Notes under the pieces: generated by a model
What the model was told of the DNA's origin: nothing
Seen by the model: the letters and a program-made list of their open reading frames with translations, nothing else
Databases searched by the model: none
In this document: one piece after another, positions 6,220 to 64,000 of the stretch
How the letters are laid out: the number at the start of each line of letters is the position of its first letter
Numbering within the stretch: the stretch's first letter is position 1
Made by a program: the position numbers and the translations under genes
Source of the DNA: Saprospiraceae bacterium
Lineage (GTDB): Bacteria; Bacteroidota; Bacteroidia; Chitinophagales; Saprospiraceae
Length of the DNA stretch: 64,000 bases
NCBI GenBank assembly: GCA_026993525.1
Contig: JALWSS010000084.1
Span: 1 to 64,000, forward strand
Direction: 5' to 3'

Positions 6220-7290
6220 ATGCCCAACTCCAGGATTGCAGGAATCGGTTATTACATCCCCGAAAAAACGGTGACCAACTTTGACCTGATGCGCTACATG
6301 GATACCTCCGACGAGTGGATCCAGGAACGAAGCGGCATCGTGGAAAGACACTACGCCAAACGCTTTGAAGAAACCACTTCAGTGCTGGGGGCCAAAGCGG
6401 CCCGCATCGCCATCGAGCGGGCGGGCATCGCACCTGAAGAAGTGGATTTTATCATCTTCGCAACACTAAGCCCTGACTATTTCTTCCCCGGCTGCGGGGT
6501 ACTGATGCAAAGAGAACTGGGTATAGCAAAAACGGAAATCGGCGCACTGGATGTGCGCAACCAGTGCTCAGGATTCATCTATGCCCTGACCGTCGGCGAT
6601 CAGTTTATCCGTTCCGGAATGTACAAAAACATCCTGGTGGTAGGTGCCGAGGTACACTCCATGGGCCTGGACTTCACCACCCGGGGGCGCAATGTCACCG
6701 TGCTCTTTGGCGACGGCGCCGGAGCAGTGGTGCTGCAACCCACGGAAGAGGAAGGCAAAGGCATACTCACCTGCCGCCTGCATTCTGACGGAACCTATGC
6801 CGAAGAACTGGCCATGATCAACCCCGGTTCTCACAGCGGGTATCACCTTCGCAAACTCGGACTGGATGCCGACCTCGGCTTTGATGAAAACCTGGAGTTC
6901 GGGGGCCTTTTTGTGACGCAAAAAATGCTGGACGAAGGCATGCTCTTCCCTACCATGAACGGGCAACTGGTCTTCAAAACCGCTGTGATCAAGTTCATTC
7001 AGGTGATCAATGAAGTGCTGAAGGACCAGGGCTATTCCCCTTCGGATATTGACCTTTTCATCCCCCACCAGGCCAACCTGCGCATCTCGCAATTTGTGCA
7101 AAAGAAACTCCGCCTTTCCGATGACCAGGTCTGGAACAACATCCAGCGCTTTGGAAATACCACCGCAGCCACCATCCCCATTGCCCTCGCAGAAGCCTGG
7201 GAGGCCGGGAAAGTAAAGGAAGGTGACCTGCTCTGCTTCGCCGCCTTCGGAAGTGGTTTCACCTGGGGCGCTACCTTGATAAGGTGGTGA
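6220..7290 (+). CDS. 3-oxoacyl-ACP synthase III family protein (FabH-like)
   Basis: A thiolase-fold condensing enzyme that joins an acyl-CoA starter to malonyl-ACP. The triad is readable: Cys116 (RNQCSGF), His283 (PHQANLRI) and Asn313 (FGNTTAATIP). GFTWGATL near the C terminus is the usual FabH ending. At 356 residues it is longer than housekeeping FabH (about 320-330), with an insertion around residues 190-250 (HSGYHLRKLGLDADLGF). That makes it more like the Bacteroidota FabH paralogues, which may use longer or branched starters in specialised lipid synthesis. It lies 21 bp after the cysteine desulfurase. FabH itself is the main alternative reading. Confidence 0.88.
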   Translation: MPNSRIAGIGYYIPEKTVTNFDLMRYMDTSDEWIQERSGIVERHYAKRFEETTSVLGAKAARIAIERAGIAPEEVDFIIFATLSPDYFFPGCGVLMQRELGIAKTEIGALDVRNQCSGFIYALTVGDQFIRSGMYKNILVVGAEVHSMGLDFTTRGRNVTVLFGDGAGAVVLQPTEEEGKGILTCRLHSDGTYAEELAMINPGSHSGYHLRKLGLDADLGFDENLEFGGLFVTQKMLDEGMLFPTMNGQLVFKTAVIKFIQVINEVLKDQGYSPSDIDLFIPHQANLRISQFVQKKLRLSDDQVWNNIQRFGNTTAATIPIALAEAWEAGKVKEGDLLCFAAFGSGFTWGATLIRW

Positions 7291-7385: not shown

Positions 7386-7477
7386 CGGGGCTCCGCCCGG
7401 TACTTGTCAGAATCGTGGATTATGCGGATTAAGGGATTGCACGGATTGGGCATCCCGAGGCAAGCTCTGAACCAATA

Positions 7478-7616
7478 ACCCCTCATAACCCCTCATAACC
7501 CTTCATAACCCTTCATAACCCTTCATAATCCCTGTCTGCCGCCAGCCCGTCTGGCCGTCGGACAGGGCAGCTTCATAACCCCTCATAACCCCTCATAACC
7601 CCTCATAACCCTACCG
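7478..7616. repeat. CATAACCCYT tandem array, left part
   Basis: About nine copies of a 10-bp unit (tcataacccY), interrupted at about 7529-7571 by a CCCTGTC/GACAGGG palindrome. The array resumes on the other side of the MITE-like element (8033-8185), so it looks like one array split by an insertion. Confidence 0.85.
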
Positions 7617-8032
7617 ATTACCCACAAATCCTCATCACATCGGGAAGTGCCTCTGCAACCCGCATTGAATGTGAAAAAAATCCTTCTAATACCCTGGTGC
7701 CCTGGCTGTGCTAAAAAGTCGTGGCGACATCAGCCATCTTGTAACCCGCTGTTTCAACGGCGGGAATCTTGCCAGTACCCCTGGACACATCCAACTTCTA
7801 TTCAAAACATCACATCAGGAATAGCTTTAGCACCAAATCCGGGATGTGAATTGAAATTGATTCTGATGCTCTGTAAAGATGTTTGATGTGATTAGGGGTT
7901 AATTCGCTAACCCCTCGTTAAAACAAGGGGTTTCAAGATGTTTGATGGGGTAAAGGATGCTTTTTCAAGCCTCGGTTACTTCATGAGTCAGAGCTCTCAG
8001 AACCGGAATGATGGATTTGTGGGTAATGGATA
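7612..8032. mobile_element. MITE-like element, 411 bp between inverted repeats
   Basis: ATTACCCACAAATCC at 7617-7631 is repeated exactly, inverted, at 8013-8027. Extending outwards three bases (16 of 18 matching) brings both ends to a TA dinucleotide (7612-7613 and 8031-8032), the target duplication expected of IS630/Tc1-mariner type transposition. The element interrupts a CATAACCCYT array. Its composition differs from the array and it carries no transposase: the longest frame (7647-7886, 79 codons) shows no domain. Inside are two mutually exclusive hairpins sharing AACCCCT (7894-7915 and 7909-7932) flanked by direct repeats of AGATGTTTGATG (7877-7888 and 7936-7947), and another hairpin CCCGC/GCGGG around 7746-7766. 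The mobile origin is an inference from structure. Confidence 0.65.
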
Positions 8033-8185
8033 GCCTTCATAACCCCTCATAACCCTTCATAACCCTTCATAACCCTTCATAACCCTTCATAACCCTTCAT
8101 AACCCCTCATAACCCTTCATCCCCGATGAATATCGGGGTCATAACCCTTCATAACCCCTCAAAACCCCTCATAACCCTCCTTCCA
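8033..8185. repeat. CATAACCCYT tandem array, right part
   Basis: About thirteen copies of the 10-bp unit with a CCCCGAT-gaat-ATCGGGG hairpin (8121-8138) in the middle. The last unit runs into the stop codon region of the T9SS gene that ends at 8169 on the minus strand. Confidence 0.85.
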
Positions 8186-11100
8186 CAACCACTTTCACAG
8201 GTATTCCCCTTCGCCCTTCGGGCAACAGGTAAACGGTGTAGAGGCCGCTGCGCCATTGGTTGCAGGTGATCTGGATGGGGTGGCCGTCGTAGTGGTCAAT
8301 TTGCCGAAGGAAGACCACCCGTCCGAGCAAGTCATTGACCCTGACCGTCAGGTTTTGACCTTTGAATTTTGAAGCTTCCACTTCAAAGGATTGAGTGGCA
8401 GGATTGGGGAACACTGCAAATGCATCCAGGGGGGTAAAAATGGCGGCTGACAGTGCATGGCCGAGGGGTTTTCCGAAGGAATCAAAAAGGATGAGCTGGT
8501 AGTGGTTCCTGCCGGGGGCGGGTTCCGGATCCACCAGCTCCAGGGATGTATAATTGTGTGTAAGCGGGTCCAGGTTTTGCGAAGCGAGGACAATGGCACC
8601 GGCGCCCTCCACCAGGCGGTAAAGGGTGAACGAGCGGGCCTCGGGGGCTAATTCCAACACCCCGTACAGTTTGATGTGGTCTGTTTCCGGAACGGCATCC
8701 AGCTGCATGGCCAGTGCCCGCTGTGAAGTGCCCTGACCTACAGCCGGGGCAATGTTGACGGTGTAGTCTTCTACCTCGCCATAGGCCAGGGTTTCACAGG
8801 CTTGAGCTGCACCGCCCCTTTTCATGGTCACCCGCATGCGGGTAAGACCGGTCGGGGCATTCTGCGGGACCTGGAGTGTTCCATTGACGGTGGCTTCGAG
8901 GGTGCCATTGGGGGGTGCCGTGGCCAATTGTGAGAAGACCAGTTCGTCGGGTTCTTCGAAAACACCGTTCTGGTTGAAGTCAATCCATACAGACCAGTGC
9001 TCATCGTAGGTGTACCAGCTAAAGCCGGAAGTAAGGTTGATGGTGTAGCTGTCACCGGCGGTCAGGTTGGCCGTCAGGCCGGTGAAATCGCTGTAAGGGC
9101 TTTTGAAAGAAGGGTTGGCCAGGTCGGCCAGGGCCACGCCGGCAATCCAGTCGTGCCAGGGAAAGTTGGAAACCGAGGCACAGTAGGTCACGCCACCGCC
9201 CCCGTTGGAACAGGGTGCCGGTGGTGTCACACTGACATTGTATGAGCAGGCGGGCAATCCCGTGTGCTGAACCGTGAAGTTGAGGATGCCACTGTTGATG
9301 GCATAGGGGCCCATAGTGTTGGGCGTGCCAATAGTTCCGCTCACAGGCGTACCGAGCACGGTAGTCGTCCATCCATCGCCGGGATTGCTGCCGCTCACGG
9401 TGAGTAAGAAAGTATAGGTATCGTCATCGGGATCGTTGGGGGTGCCGGCGTCGTGGCAAAGCAGGTTGGTGACGCTTGCCGAAAGGTCGCAGGCCACCGG
9501 TGTGGAGCAGGGTTGGGGGGGCTCAACAGCGACCGAAGTGCTGCAGCCGGGGTCATTGGCGTCGGTAATGGTCAGCGTTACCGTTCCCAGGCTGATGTCA
9601 AAGGGGCCGGTTTCTGTGGCTGTTCCGTAATTGCCGAAGAAGCTCGTGCCGTTTGTGCTTGCCTCCCAGGTAGCGGAGGTGCCGCTTCCGTTGACGGTCA
9701 GGTTGAAGCTGAACAGGTCGTCAGCGGGGTCGGTGGGTGTGTTGTTGTCGTCGCAAACCGGGGTGGCGGCAATGGCATCAATGCTGCAGGGTGGTGGAGC
9801 GCCATTGCCGATGATGACCGTGTAATCTTCCACTTCGCCAAAGGGGATGGTCTCACACGGGGTGGCAAAAGCCCCTCTTTTCAGTGCCACCCGCATCCGG
9901 GTTGGGCCGGTCAGGGCAGTGGCGGGCACGCTCACCGTACCCTCGATCGTTGCCGAAGGAGTGCCGAGTGGCGGGGCACTGAGCACACCGGAGAAGGCCA
10001 GTTCACCGGGTTCCTCGAAAGTGCCGTTCTGGTTGTAGTCAATCCACACTTTCCAGTATTCATCGTAGGTCTGCCAGCTGAAGCCGTTGCTGAGAAAAAC
10101 CGTGTAGTTGGAGCCGGCATTGAGTGAGGCGGACAGCCCGGTAAAATCCGTGTATTGCGATTTGCCGGAGCTGTTGTCCAGGTCGTTCAGTTGCACGCCG
10201 GTGATCCAATCCACCCACGGAAAGTCTCCCTTCGCTGCGCAATAGCTGTTTTGCCCGGTGCCCGTACCGACGATGGCCGTTCCGGTGGCAGTGCAGGCGT
10301 TGGCATCGCTCACGGTAACGGTGTAAACCCCGGCGTCCAGTTGGTTGATGTTGGCGGTGGTGGCGCCGGTGCTCCACAGGTAGCTGTAGGGCCAGGTGCC
10401 GCCGAAGGGATTTGCGGATGCAGAACCATTGTTGGCAGCGGGCGCGGTTTCGTCTTGTGCGCTGACGTTGGCGTTCAGGGCTTGCGGTTCAGTCAGTATC
10501 ACCTGCATGCTGCCGCTCAGTCCGTTGGCATCGGTGGCGGATACGGTGTAGGTGCCTGCTGCCAGACCGGTTGCTGTGGTGCCTGTTGCCCCGTTTGACC
10601 AGTTGACGGTATAGGGTGCGGTTCCGTTGTTGATGCTGATGGTGGCACTGCCGTTGGCGGCGCCGTGGCAGGTGGGGTTGGTTTTGCCGGCCAGGGTCAT
10701 GGCCAGTTGGCCGCCGCTGCCCTGAATGCTGAAGCTGGCCCGGTAGTACTGGCCGTTGTTGTCGTGGTAGAGGGTGTCGTCGGCAATGCCGTTGCCGTTG
10801 AAGCTGATGGTGATGCTGAAGTACAGCTCCAGGTAGTAATCACCGGGGCCGAGGCCTGACAGCACGTCCAGGGCGTTGTTGAGCTTGAAGGTGCGGCCGG
10901 TATAGGGGCCGTTGGTATTGCTGCTGAATTGGGGAACTTCAATGGTGGTAAAGCTCCCGGGGCTGGCGCCCTGCTCGTAAATGCGGTAGTGGAGCCAGCC
11001 GTCCAGCACATCGTTGCTGCAGCTTTCCCAGGTTTGTATCTGTGCATAGTTGATGACCAGGTTGGAGGTGTTTCCAAAAGCGTGGTTGTGAAATACCGTC

Positions 11101-11276
11101 AGGTAAGGGCATTGTGAAGCCTGAAATCCGCTTTCGTTACCGTTGTTGGTGATGCTCAGGGTGGTGGCACAATCGGAAACATATCCGTATCCGCACGCTT
11201 TTGATTTCAGTGCCCACAACAGCATTCCCAGAACGATCAGCCAGGCGCCGAGCGGAACCCACGATTTGCTTTTCAT
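8169..11276 (-). CDS. T9SS-secreted surface protein with SprB and GEVED repeats
   Basis: A protein of 1035 residues, started at the ATG at 11276 where a signal/membrane segment begins (MKSKSWVPLGAWLIVLGMLLWAL). Domains in order: N-terminal beta domain (~30-210), SprB-type repeats (~215-360; SATISINNGTAPYTVNWSNG pattern), GEVED domain (~365-505, ending FGEVEDYTVII), two repeats opening with PVCDDNNTPTDPADD and LCHDAGTPNDPDDD (~510-700), a second GEVED domain (~705-850, ending YGEVEDYTVNI), and a type A Por-secretion tail (~950-1035; AVFPNPATQSFEV ... SGLYTVYLL). It should be exported by Sec, moved across the outer membrane by T9SS and left on the surface or released. SprB repeats are linked to gliding adhesins. 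The two GEVED copies are very alike, which points to internal duplication. Confidence 0.88.
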   Translation of the reverse strand: MKSKSWVPLGAWLIVLGMLLWALKSKACGYGYVSDCATTLSITNNGNESGFQASQCPYLTVFHNHAFGNTSNLVINYAQIQTWESCSNDVLDGWLHYRIYEQGASPGSFTTIEVPQFSSNTNGPYTGRTFKLNNALDVLSGLGPGDYYLELYFSITISFNGNGIADDTLYHDNNGQYYRASFSIQGSGGQLAMTLAGKTNPTCHGAANGSATISINNGTAPYTVNWSNGATGTTATGLAAGTYTVSATDANGLSGSMQVILTEPQALNANVSAQDETAPAANNGSASANPFGGTWPYSYLWSTGATTANINQLDAGVYTVTVSDANACTATGTAIVGTGTGQNSYCAAKGDFPWVDWITGVQLNDLDNSSGKSQYTDFTGLSASLNAGSNYTVFLSNGFSWQTYDEYWKVWIDYNQNGTFEEPGELAFSGVLSAPPLGTPSATIEGTVSVPATALTGPTRMRVALKRGAFATPCETIPFGEVEDYTVIIGNGAPPPCSIDAIAATPVCDDNNTPTDPADDLFSFNLTVNGSGTSATWEASTNGTSFFGNYGTATETGPFDISLGTVTLTITDANDPGCSTSVAVEPPQPCSTPVACDLSASVTNLLCHDAGTPNDPDDDTYTFLLTVSGSNPGDGWTTTVLGTPVSGTIGTPNTMGPYAINSGILNFTVQHTGLPACSYNVSVTPPAPCSNGGGGVTYCASVSNFPWHDWIAGVALADLANPSFKSPYSDFTGLTANLTAGDSYTINLTSGFSWYTYDEHWSVWIDFNQNGVFEEPDELVFSQLATAPPNGTLEATVNGTLQVPQNAPTGLTRMRVTMKRGGAAQACETLAYGEVEDYTVNIAPAVGQGTSQRALAMQLDAVPETDHIKLYGVLELAPEARSFTLYRLVEGAGAIVLASQNLDPLTHNYTSLELVDPEPAPGRNHYQLILFDSFGKPLGHALSAAIFTPLDAFAVFPNPATQSFEVEASKFKGQNLTVRVNDLLGRVVFLRQIDHYDGHPIQITCNQWRSGLYTVYLLPEGRRGIPVKVVVEGGL

Positions 11277-11612
11277 AGCTCTTGTTTTTTCTACTTCAAT
11301 GGTGATTTGGTACGCCAAAGGCATAAAACAGGCTGGTGTGTGTTAGCCGTTTCTCCTTTGATAATTGCCCGAAGGGCGAAGTCAAATAGTGTTTTGCAAC
11401 AGGTTTAAGAGAGTGAGCTGAGCAAAGACGTGTGTTTGAATCCCGGATTGGATCAATGCCTGACACGCTACTCCTCTACGGAATGCCGTCAGCATCAATT
11501 TGATAAATCTTGTGAATGAGACAGAGAAGAGGGAAAATAGGTGGCAGGGGGTAAGAACAGGTGCAAAGGTAAGTCACTGCCCCGGCCGTTGCAAGGAAAT
11601 GAAGTATATTCT
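11277..11612. other. Upstream region of the GEVED protein
   Basis: A non-coding stretch between two minus-strand genes. It must hold the promoter of the T9SS protein gene; I see no consensus box or repeat array, only ordinary mixed sequence. Confidence 0.4.
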
Positions 11613-25929: not shown

Positions 25930-26245
25930 AGTTTTATCCAGTGTTCAGTGTTCAGTGGTCAGTGTTCAGTGCTCAGTTGTCAGTTGTCAGTTGTCAGTGG
26001 TCAGACCTGTCAGTTGAATCGGCAACATAACCCCCGTCTGACCACCGGGCCCTTATAAATCCACACAGTTCAGGAGTTAAAAACATCGTTGAATCCCGAG
26101 ACAAGCTCGGGACCAACCTACAACCTACAACCTCATAATCCTTCATAATCCTCATAATCCTTCATAATCCTCATAATCCTCATAATCCTCATAATCCTTC
26201 ATAATCCTTCATCCCCGATAAATATCGGGGTCATAATCCTCCCTA
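25930..26245. repeat. TTCAGTG array and CATAATCC array
   Basis: Positions 25937-26015 repeat a 7-bp unit (ttcagtg, changing to gtcagtt). At 26094-26112 is the palindrome TCCCGAG/CTCGGGA. Positions 26115-26245 repeat tcataatcc or ttcataatcc (9-10 bp) about a dozen times, with a CCCCGAT-aaat-ATCGGGG hairpin at 26213-26230. The array ends within 5 bp of the next start codon. Confidence 0.85.
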
Positions 26246-29317: not shown

Positions 29318-29425
29318 TTGGTTCAGAGAGGTTTAGAGAGGATTAGAGGAGTTTAGAGTAGTTAGATTATGCCGTTCAACCAACCTCTCTCAACTTCTCT
29401 AAACCTCTCTGAACCCCTCTCAACA
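29318..29425. repeat. GTTTAGAGR and CCTCTCTRAAC tandem repeats
   Basis: Direct repeats of ggtttagagagg/gaggagtttagag at 29318-29362 are followed by the complementary-sense caacctctctcaacttctctaaacc at 29378-29424, so the two halves could also form a long imperfect stem. They separate the T9SS cargo and the PorP-type gene. Confidence 0.7.
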
Positions 29426-33308: not shown

Positions 33309-33511
33309 CTCGTAGCTCGTAGCTGGTAGCTCGTAGCTGGTAGCTGGTAGCTCCCCGAGGTTTCGGGGCAGGCTGTGGCTGGTAGCTGGTAGCAGGCCCT
33401 GCTAACCCTTCATCCCCGATGAATATCGGGGTCATAACCCTCATAATCCTCATAATCCTTCATAACCCTCATAATCCTCATAATCCTCATAATCCTTCAT
33501 AACCCTCATAA
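33302..33511. repeat. GTAGCTSG array followed by CATAATCC array
   Basis: From the stop codon of the MscS gene, about ten copies of an 8-bp or 7-bp unit (gtagctcg, gtagctgg) run to 33395, with a CCCCGA/TCGGGG hairpin near 33353. After a CCCCGAT-gaat-ATCGGGG hairpin (33414-33431) come about nine copies of cctcataa(t/c)cc to 33511. The array ends 10 bp before the next start codon. Confidence 0.85.
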
Positions 33512-33521
33512 CCCTTCCCAC

Positions 33522-59927: not shown

Positions 59928-60704
59928 TTACCCCGGTTTTTTCCCGAAAATTTTTTCTGCATTGGCTGTTGTAACCCTTGCAATTTCTTCAATGTGGCGT
60001 CTTTGAGCATCTGCCAGGTGTTGGGCAATGATCCTGACGTAGGCGCTTTCATTGCGCTTACCCCGGAACGGAACCGGAGCCAGGTACGGCGAATCCGTTT
60101 CGAGGACGAGGTACTCGACAGGCACATCGGCCAGCGTTTGGGCCAACCCCGATTTTTTATAGGTGATCACTCCTCCTATGCCCATGTAAAAACCCATTTC
60201 CATGATTCGTTGAGCCTGGGCCAATGTGCCTCCGAAACAATGAATGATGCCGCAAAGCGAATCATCCATTTCACTTTCTATGACATCGAGGGCCAGGTCC
60301 ATGGACTCACGGGTGTGCACCACGATGGGAATGCTCAGTTTTTTCGCCCATTTGATTTGTTGCCGGAAGGCGAATTGCTGAATTTCCAGTGTGGTTTTGT
60401 CCCAATAAAGGTCCAGTCCGATTTCACCCACTGCACAGAAAGGCCTTTTGTTCAGCCAATCTTCCATGACTTCGAGCGCTTTTTCAAAACCTTCTTTCAC
60501 CGAGCAGGGATGCAGCCCCATCATGGCCTCGCACTGTCCGTTGGAGGCCGCCTCCAGCTCCAGCATTGCTGAAATGGAATTCACATCTATGTTGGGCAGG
60601 TATATTTTCTCAACGCCGGCTTTCAGTGCATTTTCGAGTACCGGTGAACGATCCTCGTCGAACTGTTTCAAATAGAGGTGTGCGTGCGTATCTGTCAATC
60701 TCAT
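59928..60704 (-). CDS. TatD-family metal-dependent deoxyribonuclease
   Basis: A TIM-barrel metal-dependent hydrolase of 258 residues, related to 3'-5' DNases active in DNA repair and decay; cytoplasmic. The start at 60704 gives the family's first motif directly (MRLTDTHAHLY); the frame upstream adds 33 unrelated residues. Metal ligands: THAH (His6, His8), GEIGLDLYW (Glu), VVHTRES (His), HCFGG (His) and ETDSPYLAP (Asp). TatD here is not part of a Tat translocase operon. Confidence 0.93.
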   Translation of the reverse strand: MRLTDTHAHLYLKQFDEDRSPVLENALKAGVEKIYLPNIDVNSISAMLELEAASNGQCEAMMGLHPCSVKEGFEKALEVMEDWLNKRPFCAVGEIGLDLYWDKTTLEIQQFAFRQQIKWAKKLSIPIVVHTRESMDLALDVIESEMDDSLCGIIHCFGGTLAQAQRIMEMGFYMGIGGVITYKKSGLAQTLADVPVEYLVLETDSPYLAPVPFRGKRNESAYVRIIAQHLADAQRRHIEEIARVTTANAEKIFGKKPG

Positions 60705-61113
60705 GTTTCTGGTTTTAGCGCTTTCAGTTTGGGCTGCGGCTCCGGGTTCAATCTTCCGGATGGTTTTTACAAGGGCCGCAAATCTCTCAAACTTATGCCC
60801 CAATTGGGTGAATTACGGCCGGAAGCATGCAATCGAGGGCCTATTTCTCTCACAATACTTTAATTAATGTATCGGTAAAGTATATTTGCCCTGTATTCAC
60901 ATCCACACATTTTCCTGATGAGCCGGAAACCGGATACCGTCCGAACCCGGAAAAGGAACACGCACAACACGGGATTAACTACACAAGTGCCAACAACCTT
61001 TCCTTTCCGTTGGCCCAAACATCACGCTGAAAGATTATTCGGAGGCAGGAGGACACCCGTTGTTTACTCCTTTGTACTTCCTTCTTTGAGAAGGCAGTGG
61101 TCAAACAATTACT
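60705..61113. other. Divergent intergenic region
   Basis: 409 bp between tatD (-) and the large surface protein gene (+). It is AT-richer around 60850-60900 and holds a promoter box (60881-60888), leaving a 5' leader of about 220 nt on the plus strand. The open frames in it carry no recognisable protein. Confidence 0.45.
60881..60888 (+). promoter_or_regulatory. -7 box TATATTTG for the large surface protein gene
   Basis: TATATTTG, a full TAnnTTTG match. CTTTAATT at 60858-60865 could be the -33 element (TTTA instead of TTTG) at about the right spacing. Confidence 0.45.
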
Positions 61114-64000
61114 ATGTTTCGAAGAATACAACCATATTCGCTTACCGGCATTTGGGTAATTGTTGTTTTGAGTGTGTTGTGTGCCTGCAGGGCCGGAGCT
61201 GCGGTGCATCCGGGGTTTAGCCTTGCTGACCTCGATGCCGGATCATCCTCAGGAACTGCCAACGACACTTTGCTGGTCACCATACCGGCTGATTCTTCTT
61301 CTGTTTACTGTGTTCCTCTTTCGGCCATTGACATCAACGGCGTGTTGACGGCCTCCAGCATTTGCGAAGATGGAAATGCAGGAACGGTGCAGGCCACCGG
61401 CATTGAAGCGTATTGCGTCACATTGAATCCCGCACCGGGATTCACCGGACTCTCACCGGATGTCATTTGTGTGGTTCATTGTTTTGACAATTCAGCCACC
61501 CTGTGCGACACCACTTACCTTCAGGTGGCAGCAGTCCCTGCCAATTGCGACGAGATATTCACTGAGGATACCCTTCATGTTTCTCTTTTCGGCGTTCCGC
61601 AAAATGTCTGCATTCCGCTCTCACCCCTCGATGCGGAGAGCTACGAGCTTTCGTTGGATGGAATTCCTTACCAGAACCTGGTTGGCTGCAATTTCGATTC
61701 GGTGATCGTGTATTCCTATGGTTTGTTGCCGGGAGGAGGGTTCTCCGGGCCATACCAGTTGAACCAATGGGCCGTGAACGGCCAGTCGTTCAATGGCTTC
61801 TTCAACAACGTGGCCAACCTGGTGGTCTTTATGAACTTCGTGGACCCGGCCGGAAACTGGCAGTTGAACACCGATGCCAAGATCATCTTCGGTGGGGTCA
61901 TTGGCAGCAATTACGGCAACATGGACGTGACCCACCTTCCAACCACTTCCAACTCCATACTCAGCGTCAATTACTCCATCCTGCCAAACGGGTTGCAGAT
62001 TCAGCTTCCGGACGATCAGCCCCACTTTTTTGTGGCGCTGGACCCGGTGACGTTTTGCTCGGACACACTGGTCATCAATCCTCAGCCTTACCAGCCGCAA
62101 ACGGACACTTTGTTTCTTTCCCTCGTCGCAAACGGACAGTCCGGTACCATTTGCCTGGACGGCGCCGAGTTGGGCGGCGGTGTTGAAAACATCGGCATTT
62201 GCCAGGCTGCCCAAAACGGCCAGGTGCCCATAGTTGGTGATTCCTGTTTCCAGTACATCCCTCAACCTGGTTACGCCGGAACGGACACCTTTTGCGTGGT
62301 GGTGTGCAACAGTGCTTTCCCGCAATTGTGCGACAGCACGATGGTGATTGTAAAGATCATTCCCGAAAACGATACGGTTCAGTTGTACCTGCCCGCCGGT
62401 GTGCAAGCCCTGGACACTTGCCTGACGGAAGCCATTCTGCAGGTTCAGCCGCCATACACCTGGGAGTCGTTTTGCCAGGGGGACCCCGGCGTGCAGGTCA
62501 GCCTTGACAGCACCTGTGTCAACGTGCTTGCTTCAAACCCCGACGGAGGGTCGGCTTCCTGCTATTTTCTCCATTGCAACGACCTGTTTTGCGATACCAC
62601 CTGGGTTTTTGTCGAGGTGGAACCCGAGGTCATTTGCGACGAGATTTTCCATGCTGACAGCCTGTTTCTGACCGCAGTGGGCGACACGGCTGTGCTGTGC
62701 CTGGATGTACCGGTCTCCATGATCGGCAACTACCAGATCACCCTGGATGGAGCCCCATTCACCAATACCCAGCTTGAACCCTGTGGCGACCCCGTACTCA
62801 CCCGATACGATGTGCTTTCTTTGCCACCGGGTCCTTATTTTATAGAATCCTGGACGGCCGGCGGCAACACCTTTTTTGGTGCCGCTCCCGACCTCGGTGC
62901 CATCGCCGATTCTCTTTTGAGCTGGGATCCGGCAGGCCTCTGGGCCATTCTCGGTTTGCCACCTATGCTGATCGGTGGTGAGGCCGGCACAGCCTATGGG
63001 CCCTTGCTGGTCAGTTCACTGGCCACGGGCCAGACGGACACCCTGCAGCCCCTTCCGGTGGGGCCGGGGGGAGGTTCACGGATCAAGATCGGCGGAGCCG
63101 GAAGCCGGGAATTGGTCCTCACTGCCCCCGATGGCTGTGCGGATTCCGTGTGGCTCATCGTCGAAAACCACCAGGTGTGGGCAGACACCGTACTCGTACA
63201 GACTTTCGTCAACGTGCCGGTGCCGGAAGTGTGCGTGCCCACCGGTCAGTTGCTGGGTGACCTGGCCCAATTCGCCTTTTGCCAGACGCCCCAGAACGGC
63301 GCTTTCAGCCAGGTGGGGCCTGCCTGCGTGGCCTATGCGCCCAACACCAACTTTACCGGAACGGATACCCTTTGCGTCATCCTCTGCGACGATTTTGAGC
63401 CGGTGGTCTGCGATACACAGGTCATCGTCTTCGAGGTGGTGCAAAAAACGGATACCCTGCTGCTCAGCACCTTTGAAGACGTGCCCAGCCAGGTGCTTTG
63501 TCTCGATACCACCTCACTGCCGGGTAACTTTTTGGGGGCAACTGTTTGCGAAGCGCCCCAATCCGGCAACCTGCTGCTGAACCAGAATTGCTTCTCTTAC
63601 AATCCGGCTCCCGGCTTTATCGGGCAAGACACTGCCTGTCTGCTCGTCTGCGATGGCACCGGTGTTTGCGACAGCACCTGGCTGTTCATTCAGGTGGACT
63701 CGCTGTGCAGTTTGTACGAATTCATTCCGGATGACACCCTGATGATAGAAGCGGCCGCTTGCAGCGATCTGGAGCCCTTCTGTGTGGAACTGAATTTTGA
63801 CTCGCTTTCGCAATGGGGCATCCTCGACAACGGCGTGCCGGTGGTCAGCGGCTTGTCTGCCTGCGCCGGCAACAACACCCAGGTAGCGCTCGACACGGGC
63901 TTCCACGAAGTCATCTTCGTACACATAAACACCGGGTGCAGGGACACTTTGCTGGCCGGCATCAATTGCCCTGTGGACTCCACCGGCTGCGGTTTTGCTG
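61114..64000 (+). CDS. Large cysteine-rich surface protein with Ig-like repeats (partial, 3' end outside)
   Basis: An open frame of 962 codons without stop runs from the ATG at 61114 past the window edge. The N terminus (MFRRIQPYSLTGIWVIVVLSVLCACRAGAA) is a signal peptide; LCAC could even be a lipobox. The rest is a series of repeats of roughly 100-150 residues, each with patterns like GxDTLCVxxCDxxxxxCDTxxxxxxV (e.g. GLSPDVICVVHCFDNSATLCDTTYLQV, GTDTFCVVVCNSAFPQLCDSTMVIV, GTDTLCVILCDDFEPVVCDTQVIV), between which lie variable modules. The paired cysteines could form disulfides outside the cell. It resembles giant Ig-like/cadherin-like adhesins of Bacteroidota; a T9SS tail would be expected beyond the edge. 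Confidence 0.75.
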   Translation, partial: MFRRIQPYSLTGIWVIVVLSVLCACRAGAAVHPGFSLADLDAGSSSGTANDTLLVTIPADSSSVYCVPLSAIDINGVLTASSICEDGNAGTVQATGIEAYCVTLNPAPGFTGLSPDVICVVHCFDNSATLCDTTYLQVAAVPANCDEIFTEDTLHVSLFGVPQNVCIPLSPLDAESYELSLDGIPYQNLVGCNFDSVIVYSYGLLPGGGFSGPYQLNQWAVNGQSFNGFFNNVANLVVFMNFVDPAGNWQLNTDAKIIFGGVIGSNYGNMDVTHLPTTSNSILSVNYSILPNGLQIQLPDDQPHFFVALDPVTFCSDTLVINPQPYQPQTDTLFLSLVANGQSGTICLDGAELGGGVENIGICQAAQNGQVPIVGDSCFQYIPQPGYAGTDTFCVVVCNSAFPQLCDSTMVIVKIIPENDTVQLYLPAGVQALDTCLTEAILQVQPPYTWESFCQGDPGVQVSLDSTCVNVLASNPDGGSASCYFLHCNDLFCDTTWVFVEVEPEVICDEIFHADSLFLTAVGDTAVLCLDVPVSMIGNYQITLDGAPFTNTQLEPCGDPVLTRYDVLSLPPGPYFIESWTAGGNTFFGAAPDLGAIADSLLSWDPAGLWAILGLPPMLIGGEAGTAYGPLLVSSLATGQTDTLQPLPVGPGGGSRIKIGGAGSRELVLTAPDGCADSVWLIVENHQVWADTVLVQTFVNVPVPEVCVPTGQLLGDLAQFAFCQTPQNGAFSQVGPACVAYAPNTNFTGTDTLCVILCDDFEPVVCDTQVIVFEVVQKTDTLLLSTFEDVPSQVLCLDTTSLPGNFLGATVCEAPQSGNLLLNQNCFSYNPAPGFIGQDTACLLVCDGTGVCDSTWLFIQVDSLCSLYEFIPDDTLMIEAAACSDLEPFCVELNFDSLSQWGILDNGVPVVSGLSACAGNNTQVALDTGFHEVIFVHINTGCRDTLLAGINCPVDSTGCGFA

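Follow-up and report, generated by a model that had tools for sequence, protein, structure and literature searches.

A MITE whose ends very probably belong to the IS50/Tn5-like group, within a CATAACCCYT repeat array of a Saprospiraceae bacterium

In this study, we analysed a window of 64,000 nt from a Saprospiraceae bacterium (assembly GCA_026993525.1, contig JALWSS010000084.1, positions 1 to 64,000), and the segment at 7611–8033 is very probably a MITE with 21-bp ends of the IS50/Tn5-like group of the IS4 family, which would be moved in trans, duplicate about 11 bp of its target and prefer intergenic repeats of about 10 bp. The kind of element is known, a MITE of the IS50/Tn5-like group; its preference for repeat units, its variable duplication length and the exchange of its interior make it an unusual variant. 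Its features are as follows.

7611–8033, + strand: MITE copy of 423 bp with its two 21-bp ends counted, belonging to a set of 25 two-ended copies in this genome
7611–7631, + strand: left terminal inverted repeat, CTACCGATTACCCACAAATCC (family consensus CTATCSATTACCCACAAATCC)
8013–8033, − strand: right terminal inverted repeat, reverse complement CTATCCATTACCCACAAATCC
7600–7610, no strand: left copy of the putative 11-bp target duplication, CCCTCATAACC, matching 8034–8044 at 10 of 11 positions and inseparable from the array here
8034–8044, no strand: right copy of the putative 11-bp target duplication, CCTTCATAACC, inseparable from the array at this site
7475–7610, no strand: CATAACCCYT array, left part, interrupted by a small palindrome (rows 7475–7533 and 7573–7611)
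8034–8178, no strand: right part of the CATAACCCYT array
7727–7948, + strand: internal palindromic core, an inverted pair of units of about 85 bp detected by self-match, limits approximate
7745–7764, + strand: internal hairpin 1, CCCGCTGTTTCAACGGCGGG; 13 of 24 copies have a small palindrome in its loop
7911–7930, + strand: internal hairpin 2, CCCCTCGTTAAAACAAGGGG; 12 of 24 copies have a small palindrome in its loop

The 15-nt inverted pair described in the first-pass annotation is present, with ATTACCCACAAATCC at 7617–7631 exactly inverted at 8013–8027 (411 bp, outer to outer), and the terminal inverted repeat proved to be longer than first noted, 7611–7631 pairing with 8013–8033 over 21 nt at 90% complementarity. 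The TA that had been reported to adjoin each 18-bp end (7612–7613 and 8031–8032) is indeed there; it is part of the 21-bp terminal repeat, however, and not a duplicated target, and across 24 aligned copies the left TA is invariant and the right one is kept in all but one. The placement of the element within one CATAACCCYT array was borne out by period-10 rows on both sides (7475–7533, 7573–7611 and 8034–8178), as were its differing composition (45% GC against about 46–58% in 2-kb steps across the window) and its lack of a transposase, no open reading frame (ORF) of at least 100 aa with a common start codon being present in it. The element stands between two convergent long ORFs, 6220–7290 (+) and 8169–11324 (−), the first of which looks by eye like a fabH-type gene. 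The array is also interrupted by small palindromes at 7533–7571 (CTGTCTGCC...GGACAGGGCAG) and 8120–8139 (CCCCGATGAATATCGGGG), and a palindrome related to these lies near 2929. Many element-free tandem arrays of about 7–10 bp with related G-rich or C-rich units occur in the window (e.g., 26131–26208, 29320–29424 and 33432–33515).

The reading of the element as a MITE, that is, a multi-copy element with terminal inverted repeats and no transposase, inserted in an array, holds for this genome, in which copies lie on many contigs. With up to two mismatches the 15-mer had 71 matches in the 5.16-Mb genome against seven for the reversed pattern, and the 15-nt end is therefore not a product of chance. 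The genome search that the annotation had proposed, carried out with 7614–8030 (417 bp) as the query, gave 40 matches, 25 of which spanned all or nearly all of it at 73–100% identity. Both ends are present in 24 of these 25, the left end being absent from L021; adding L029, in which the middle is replaced and both ends are kept, gives the 25 two-ended copies, and the end-to-end alignment of 24 copies leaves L029 out. Pairwise identity among the 24 had a median of 0.912 (minimum 0.814, maximum 0.969) and reached 0.99 in none of the 276 pairs. Since the copies are at most 97% identical and a search of this genome at E ≤ 1e-10 detected no homologue of the transposase described below, the family looks old in its own genome, where a sign of recent movement is absent. 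Among the end matches with up to two mismatches in the 230-contig assembly there was no inward-facing pair 1–3 kb apart, and thus no candidate for an autonomous copy bearing these ends.

Three truncated copies (L027, L028 and L030) stand in different places and share one start junction, at which a GGACAGG palindrome meets the middle of hairpin 2; they are possibly deletions produced by recombination between dispersed palindromes. Repeats in opposite orientation on the two sides of the element were seen at L008, L025 and L033, at L073, L082 and L093 of KLAP56 and at L090 of MAG.385, a pattern as expected if copies had recombined with each other and caused inversions.

The neighbouring gene was matched in all 14 genomes of the genus (over only 23 bases in G005 and partially in G002 and G013), and about 1 kb downstream of it was compared between the window's genome and ten others. 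Conservation of the element in place was not seen: in G004, the closest genome of the genus that was found (86% DNA identity in the neighbouring gene), this region of about 1 kb contains short repeat arrays and is without the element. Among the flanks compared, no convincing insertion site common to the window's genome and G004 was found; one gene flank is common to L004 and L072, but at a different distance from the element.

The interior is dominated by palindromes. Optional loop palindromes of the CCTGTCTGCCGACAAGGCAGG type (in both orientations) and of the CCCGTCTGGCCGCCGGACAGG type occur in the two hairpins, both loops carrying one in eight of 24 copies, neither in seven, only the first in five and only the second in four; because all four combinations exist, these palindromes must have been gained or lost more than once, or else swapped from copy to copy. 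The core also has matches in G002, G005, G006, G008, G009, G011 and G012, none of which adjoins an end match. Elsewhere in the genus it stands inside other inverted repeats (L041, L042, L043 and L046), for example between GTGACTTCAAGTCTAATGTCGTCAACTT arms, and one core copy (L056) adjoins what appears by eye to be a type I restriction specificity gene. We read the MITE as a pair of nearly fixed ends enclosing host palindromes.

The same ends enclose other interiors in other genomes. Scanning the genome_contigs collection for exact copies of TATCSATTACCCACAAATCC yielded 30 stretches, with matches in NAT133 (G004), KLAP56 (G413), SJ858 and MAG.385; single matches in Sedimentisphaerales, Prado074 and Odoribacter laneus may be due to chance, about one chance match being expected, and the viral contigs held no exact match to the 20-base end. 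The 21-bp ends enclose elements that adjoin repeats in KLAP56 (274–278 bp), MAG.385 (242 bp) and SJ858 (425 bp). The MAG.385 contig (L090, JAKLJF010000208.1) is labelled Thermoanaerobaculia, yet it bears an element and an array type otherwise found here in Bacteroidota, and it is possibly mis-binned. With up to three mismatches, at least one end match occurred in 96 of 398 genomes of the family and at least six in nine of them (G000, G004, G082, G160, G233, G280, G287, G313 and G413). When 12 interiors and one core were compared, 14 of 78 pairs matched at E ≤ 1e-3; most classes have no detectable similarity to one another, the classes being G000 with G004, G160 with G313, G233 and G280, G287 with SJ858, and KLAP56, MAG.385 and G082 each alone. 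One link across classes was noticed: a MITE of G287, which belongs to another genus, contains half of the core known from the window's genus (L128 against L042 of G006, 76% over 91 bp).

Besides MITEs, Haliscomenobacter hydrossis DSM 1100 (G160) has full-length elements whose ends are similar. Its end matches number 62, of which 58 pair into 24 MITEs of 231–247 bp, mostly ending CTGTCGATTACCCACAAATCC, and five long elements of 1546–1549 bp with ends CTGTCAATTACCCACAAAACC, leaving four unpaired. The ends of the full-length elements differ from the consensus of the window family at three of 21 positions, and no autonomous element with ends exactly as in that consensus (CTATCGATTACCCACAAATCC) was found. 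The long elements encode a 462-aa protein, identical in the four chromosomal copies scored, which scored 301.7 bits against the IS4 family transposase model NF033590 (cut-off 160), carries PF14706 (Tnp_DNA_bind) and matches Tn5 transposase structures over nearly its whole length (best E about 1e-26). Its aspartate motifs DT and DREADI align with Tn5, and it shows the pattern Y-2-R-3-E-6-K, a motif of the IS4 family. With a DDE transposase and 9-bp duplications (see below), the autonomous partner in H. hydrossis is a member of the IS50/Tn5-like group of the IS4 family. The identity of 121 of 253 pairs among 23 of the 24 MITEs was at least 0.99, indicating that the system was recently active in H. 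hydrossis. At one locus, L188 (pHALHY03 60400–63000), a MITE end and one end of a full-length insertion sequence are apparently joined into a composite.

Homologues of the H. hydrossis transposase were detected at E ≤ 1e-10 in 37 of the 398 genomes, but neither in that of the window nor in G004. Of the nine with at least six end matches, only G160 and G313 had a match, that of G313 consisting of a 55-aa fragment and a 27% match; the transposase of G383 is 44% identical to that of H. hydrossis. This absence at E ≤ 1e-10 means that the mover in the window's genome has been lost, lies outside the assembly or is too diverged for the search. Among candidates considered for that role and rejected were three DDE_Tnp_1 genes of the same genome, none of which has these ends within the loci examined, and a Y1/REP-associated transposase, two Y1_Tnp genes having been found with other palindromes in or beside both. 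One of the loci (L069, contig C142 of the window's genome) has its Y1 gene amid GTTCCGTAGGAACGG palindromes and is likely a REP-associated transposase unrelated to the window element. Mobilization of the window element by an IS50/Tn5-like transposase is accordingly proposed as a putative assignment, drawn from its ends and its relatives.

The length of the target duplication was sought by comparing the last n bases before each copy with the first n after it. In the window's genome n = 11 was best, at least eight of 11 positions matching in 19 of the 25 copies (10 of them exactly); two copies (L003 and L018) fit n = 10 better, and four (L008, L024, L025 and L029) have no matching flanks. The 11-bp match alone is no proof of duplication in this genome, because the flanks are repeats and the 11-bp repeat across the element is no more alike than neighbouring array units are (Wilcoxon P 0.56). 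Three lines nevertheless make an 11-bp duplication likely. The arrays, of period 10, and the flanks of L023, of period 9, concur on 11 bp, and as they agree on that length only, a fixed duplication of one or two bases (G or GG) was set aside. In NAT133, copy L096, whose flanks contain no array, lies between GGCCAATAACG and GACCAATAACG, which match at 10 of 11 positions; no ORF of more than 80 codons runs across the join of its flanks. In G383, the 11-bp sequence ACTTTGAAAGT is duplicated without mismatch on the two sides of a 1487-bp insertion sequence whose ends read CTTTTGATTACCCACAGAATA, and this duplication lies centrally within a palindrome.

Other lengths were found in other genomes. A 10-bp duplication (at least eight of 10 positions) fits five of the eight two-ended copies of KLAP56, the other three having no such match. 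In H. hydrossis, 22 of the 29 elements have exact duplications, 19 of 9 bp and three of 10 bp, and of the remaining seven three match at eight of nine positions and four at fewer. Duplications there at sites without neighbouring units include ATCATAGGT, TCCCTGGGT and ATGTTTCAT; the last stands on either side of a MITE that splits an annotated endo-1,4-beta-xylanase gene, in which restoration of the frame does not single out 9 bp, both joins being open (603 and 606 codons). As the duplication length varies among genomes (9, 10 and 11 bp), one enzyme is not to be assumed.

The elements stand mostly among short repeat units. Beyond the 11-bp repeat, a G-rich decamer unit occurs within 80 bp on either side in 23 of the 25 copies of the window's genome, compared with 16.0% of 10,000 random positions in the window and 11.4% of 193 stretches 300–1400 bp away. 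In H. hydrossis, CTAAGG-type units lie within 40 bp beyond the 9-bp repeat in 23 of 29 elements and in 1.5% of 324 overlapping control pieces from five loci. The decamer motifs were picked after the flanks had been viewed, so that the contrast counts as evidence and the exact figure does not. A motif-free lag test gave weak results, with two or four of 25 sites, depending on the null, above the 99th percentile of the window, indicating that most sites are in short, imperfect runs rather than in long arrays. The units differ between genomes, being GGTTTAGAGG in the window's genome, GTCTAAGGTG in H. hydrossis and GGTTTGAAGG in KLAP56. The Tn5 target consensus GNTYWRANC is fitted at nine of nine positions by GGTTTAAACC and at eight by GGTTTGAAGG, GGTTTAGAGGG and ACCTTAAACC; several array units of the window's genome and the 13 H. 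hydrossis targets examined show an ordinary fit, the latter no better than shuffles, so that it was dropped as a general rule. The idea that the arrays are footprints of repeated insertion and excision was also set aside, their period of 10 being unlike the 11-bp duplication here.

In our preferred explanation, a Tn5-like transposase would act in trans on the 21-bp ends and move the MITE by cut-and-paste, each insertion in the window's genome probably creating a target duplication of about 11 bp. The mover there may be the same kind of transposase as in H. hydrossis. A run of units near the duplication length would form a cluster of overlapping preferred targets, and the arrays would draw insertion in this way, as has been reported for Tn5; of the mechanisms for the target choice we find this the most likely.

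The first-pass annotation had assigned the element to non-autonomous elements of the IS630/Tc1-mariner type, which leave TA duplications. Although a TA does adjoin each 18-bp end, this assignment is extremely unlikely and we reject it on the duplication evidence: CTA/TAG belongs to the conserved ends across different arrays, whichever way these run; the genome lacks the predicted empty site GAGGGCTAGGGTTTAG, also when two mismatches are allowed; and the full-length elements whose ends are similar duplicate 9–10 bp and code for a transposase of the IS4 family. The element might also spread without a transposase, by recombination from array to array through homologous flanks. Nearly all copies in the window's genome do lie among related repeat units, and the flank directions are opposed at L008 and L025, as recombination between copies would give; but the junction point is constant across arrays of different sequence and period, the same junctions recur at the array-free sites L096, L171, L173 and L187, and the ends are conserved across genomes despite different interiors. 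We consider such a spread improbable, recombination having probably reshuffled some copies at a later time.

About equally improbable is that the segment is a structured RNA or a regulatory DNA hairpin (a terminator or insulator, for instance) retained because it serves the host, its mobility belonging to the past. Folding is what speaks for it: the window copy, ends included, folds as single-stranded DNA far better than its shuffles (z −6.2), and z lies below −3 for the interior in all but one of 15 elements drawn from 11 genomes (15 shuffles each), the exception being SJ858; seven other genomes of the genus, moreover, contain the core without these ends. Against this, the conserved ends are common to several unrelated interior classes, and the element is absent downstream of the same gene in G004. 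A comparison of six loci with Rfam gave only weak matches far below the gathering scores, on which ground a structured RNA was rejected. A mobile MITE of the IS50/Tn5-like group, which remains our preferred reading, may still have a transcriptional side effect.

Several known systems resemble this one in part. Tn5 duplicates 9 bp. Like Tn5/IS50, the H. hydrossis elements make 9-bp duplications and encode a transposase homologous over nearly its whole length, and the ends of the present elements resemble the mosaic end CTGTCTCTTATACACATCT, more than shuffles of their letters do (P 0.0004–0.010). Unlike those of Tn5/IS50, the ends are of 21 bp and of distinct sequence, and duplications range from 9 to 11 bp across genomes. 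Tn5 has been reported to favour a 9-bp target, best inside a cluster of similar overlapping sequences (PMC1525189, citing Goryshin 1998, in the available part of the text). Targets here are strongly biased to repeat units, in contrast to in vitro Tn5-based insertion, for which the part of the report available gives a low bias per position (PMC3046479). ISRm22, one of the insertion sequences that target REP palindromes, is likewise an IS4-family element inserted in intergenic repeats, with 10 of 10 copies in REPs by the table and nine by the text in the sections available (Tobes and Pareja, 2006; PMC1525189); the targets here, by contrast, are mostly tandem units of about 10 bp rather than REP palindromes, the carriers are mostly MITEs, and the repeat units differ between several genomes.

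The BrickBuilt MITE of Porphyromonas gingivalis is, by the excerpts available, also an intergenic, minisatellite-associated element of Bacteroidota; its 23-nt tandem repeat, however, is inside the MITE, and the repeats here are the target outside (PMC4596501). The internal core, an inverted hairpin pair repeated in the genus, is similar to REPINs and BIMEs as described in part of PMC3116915, but 27 of 28 exact matches of the core motif CATCTTGTAACCC in the window's genome fall where the element stands, and other palindromes occur in or beside both Y1 transposase genes that were found. A limited literature search found no paper on the present elements, and we do not claim that they are absent from print.

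A wider reading, which we offer tentatively and as somewhat short of probable, is that a Tn5-like lineage of the Saprospirales may use intergenic arrays of about 10 bp as landing pads, the duplication following the unit at 9–11 bp, targets and arrays having changed together, and near-fixed ends being retained while interiors were replaced, mostly by host palindromes. The element accounts for a dispersed repeat family of these genomes. If true, the targeting of arrays would be a natural case of the preference reported for Tn5 for clusters of overlapping targets, and natural elements with duplications of 9, 10 and 11 bp would let the cluster-target rule be tested. It would also represent naturally safe, mostly intergenic targeting in a transposase family that is widely used in sequencing.
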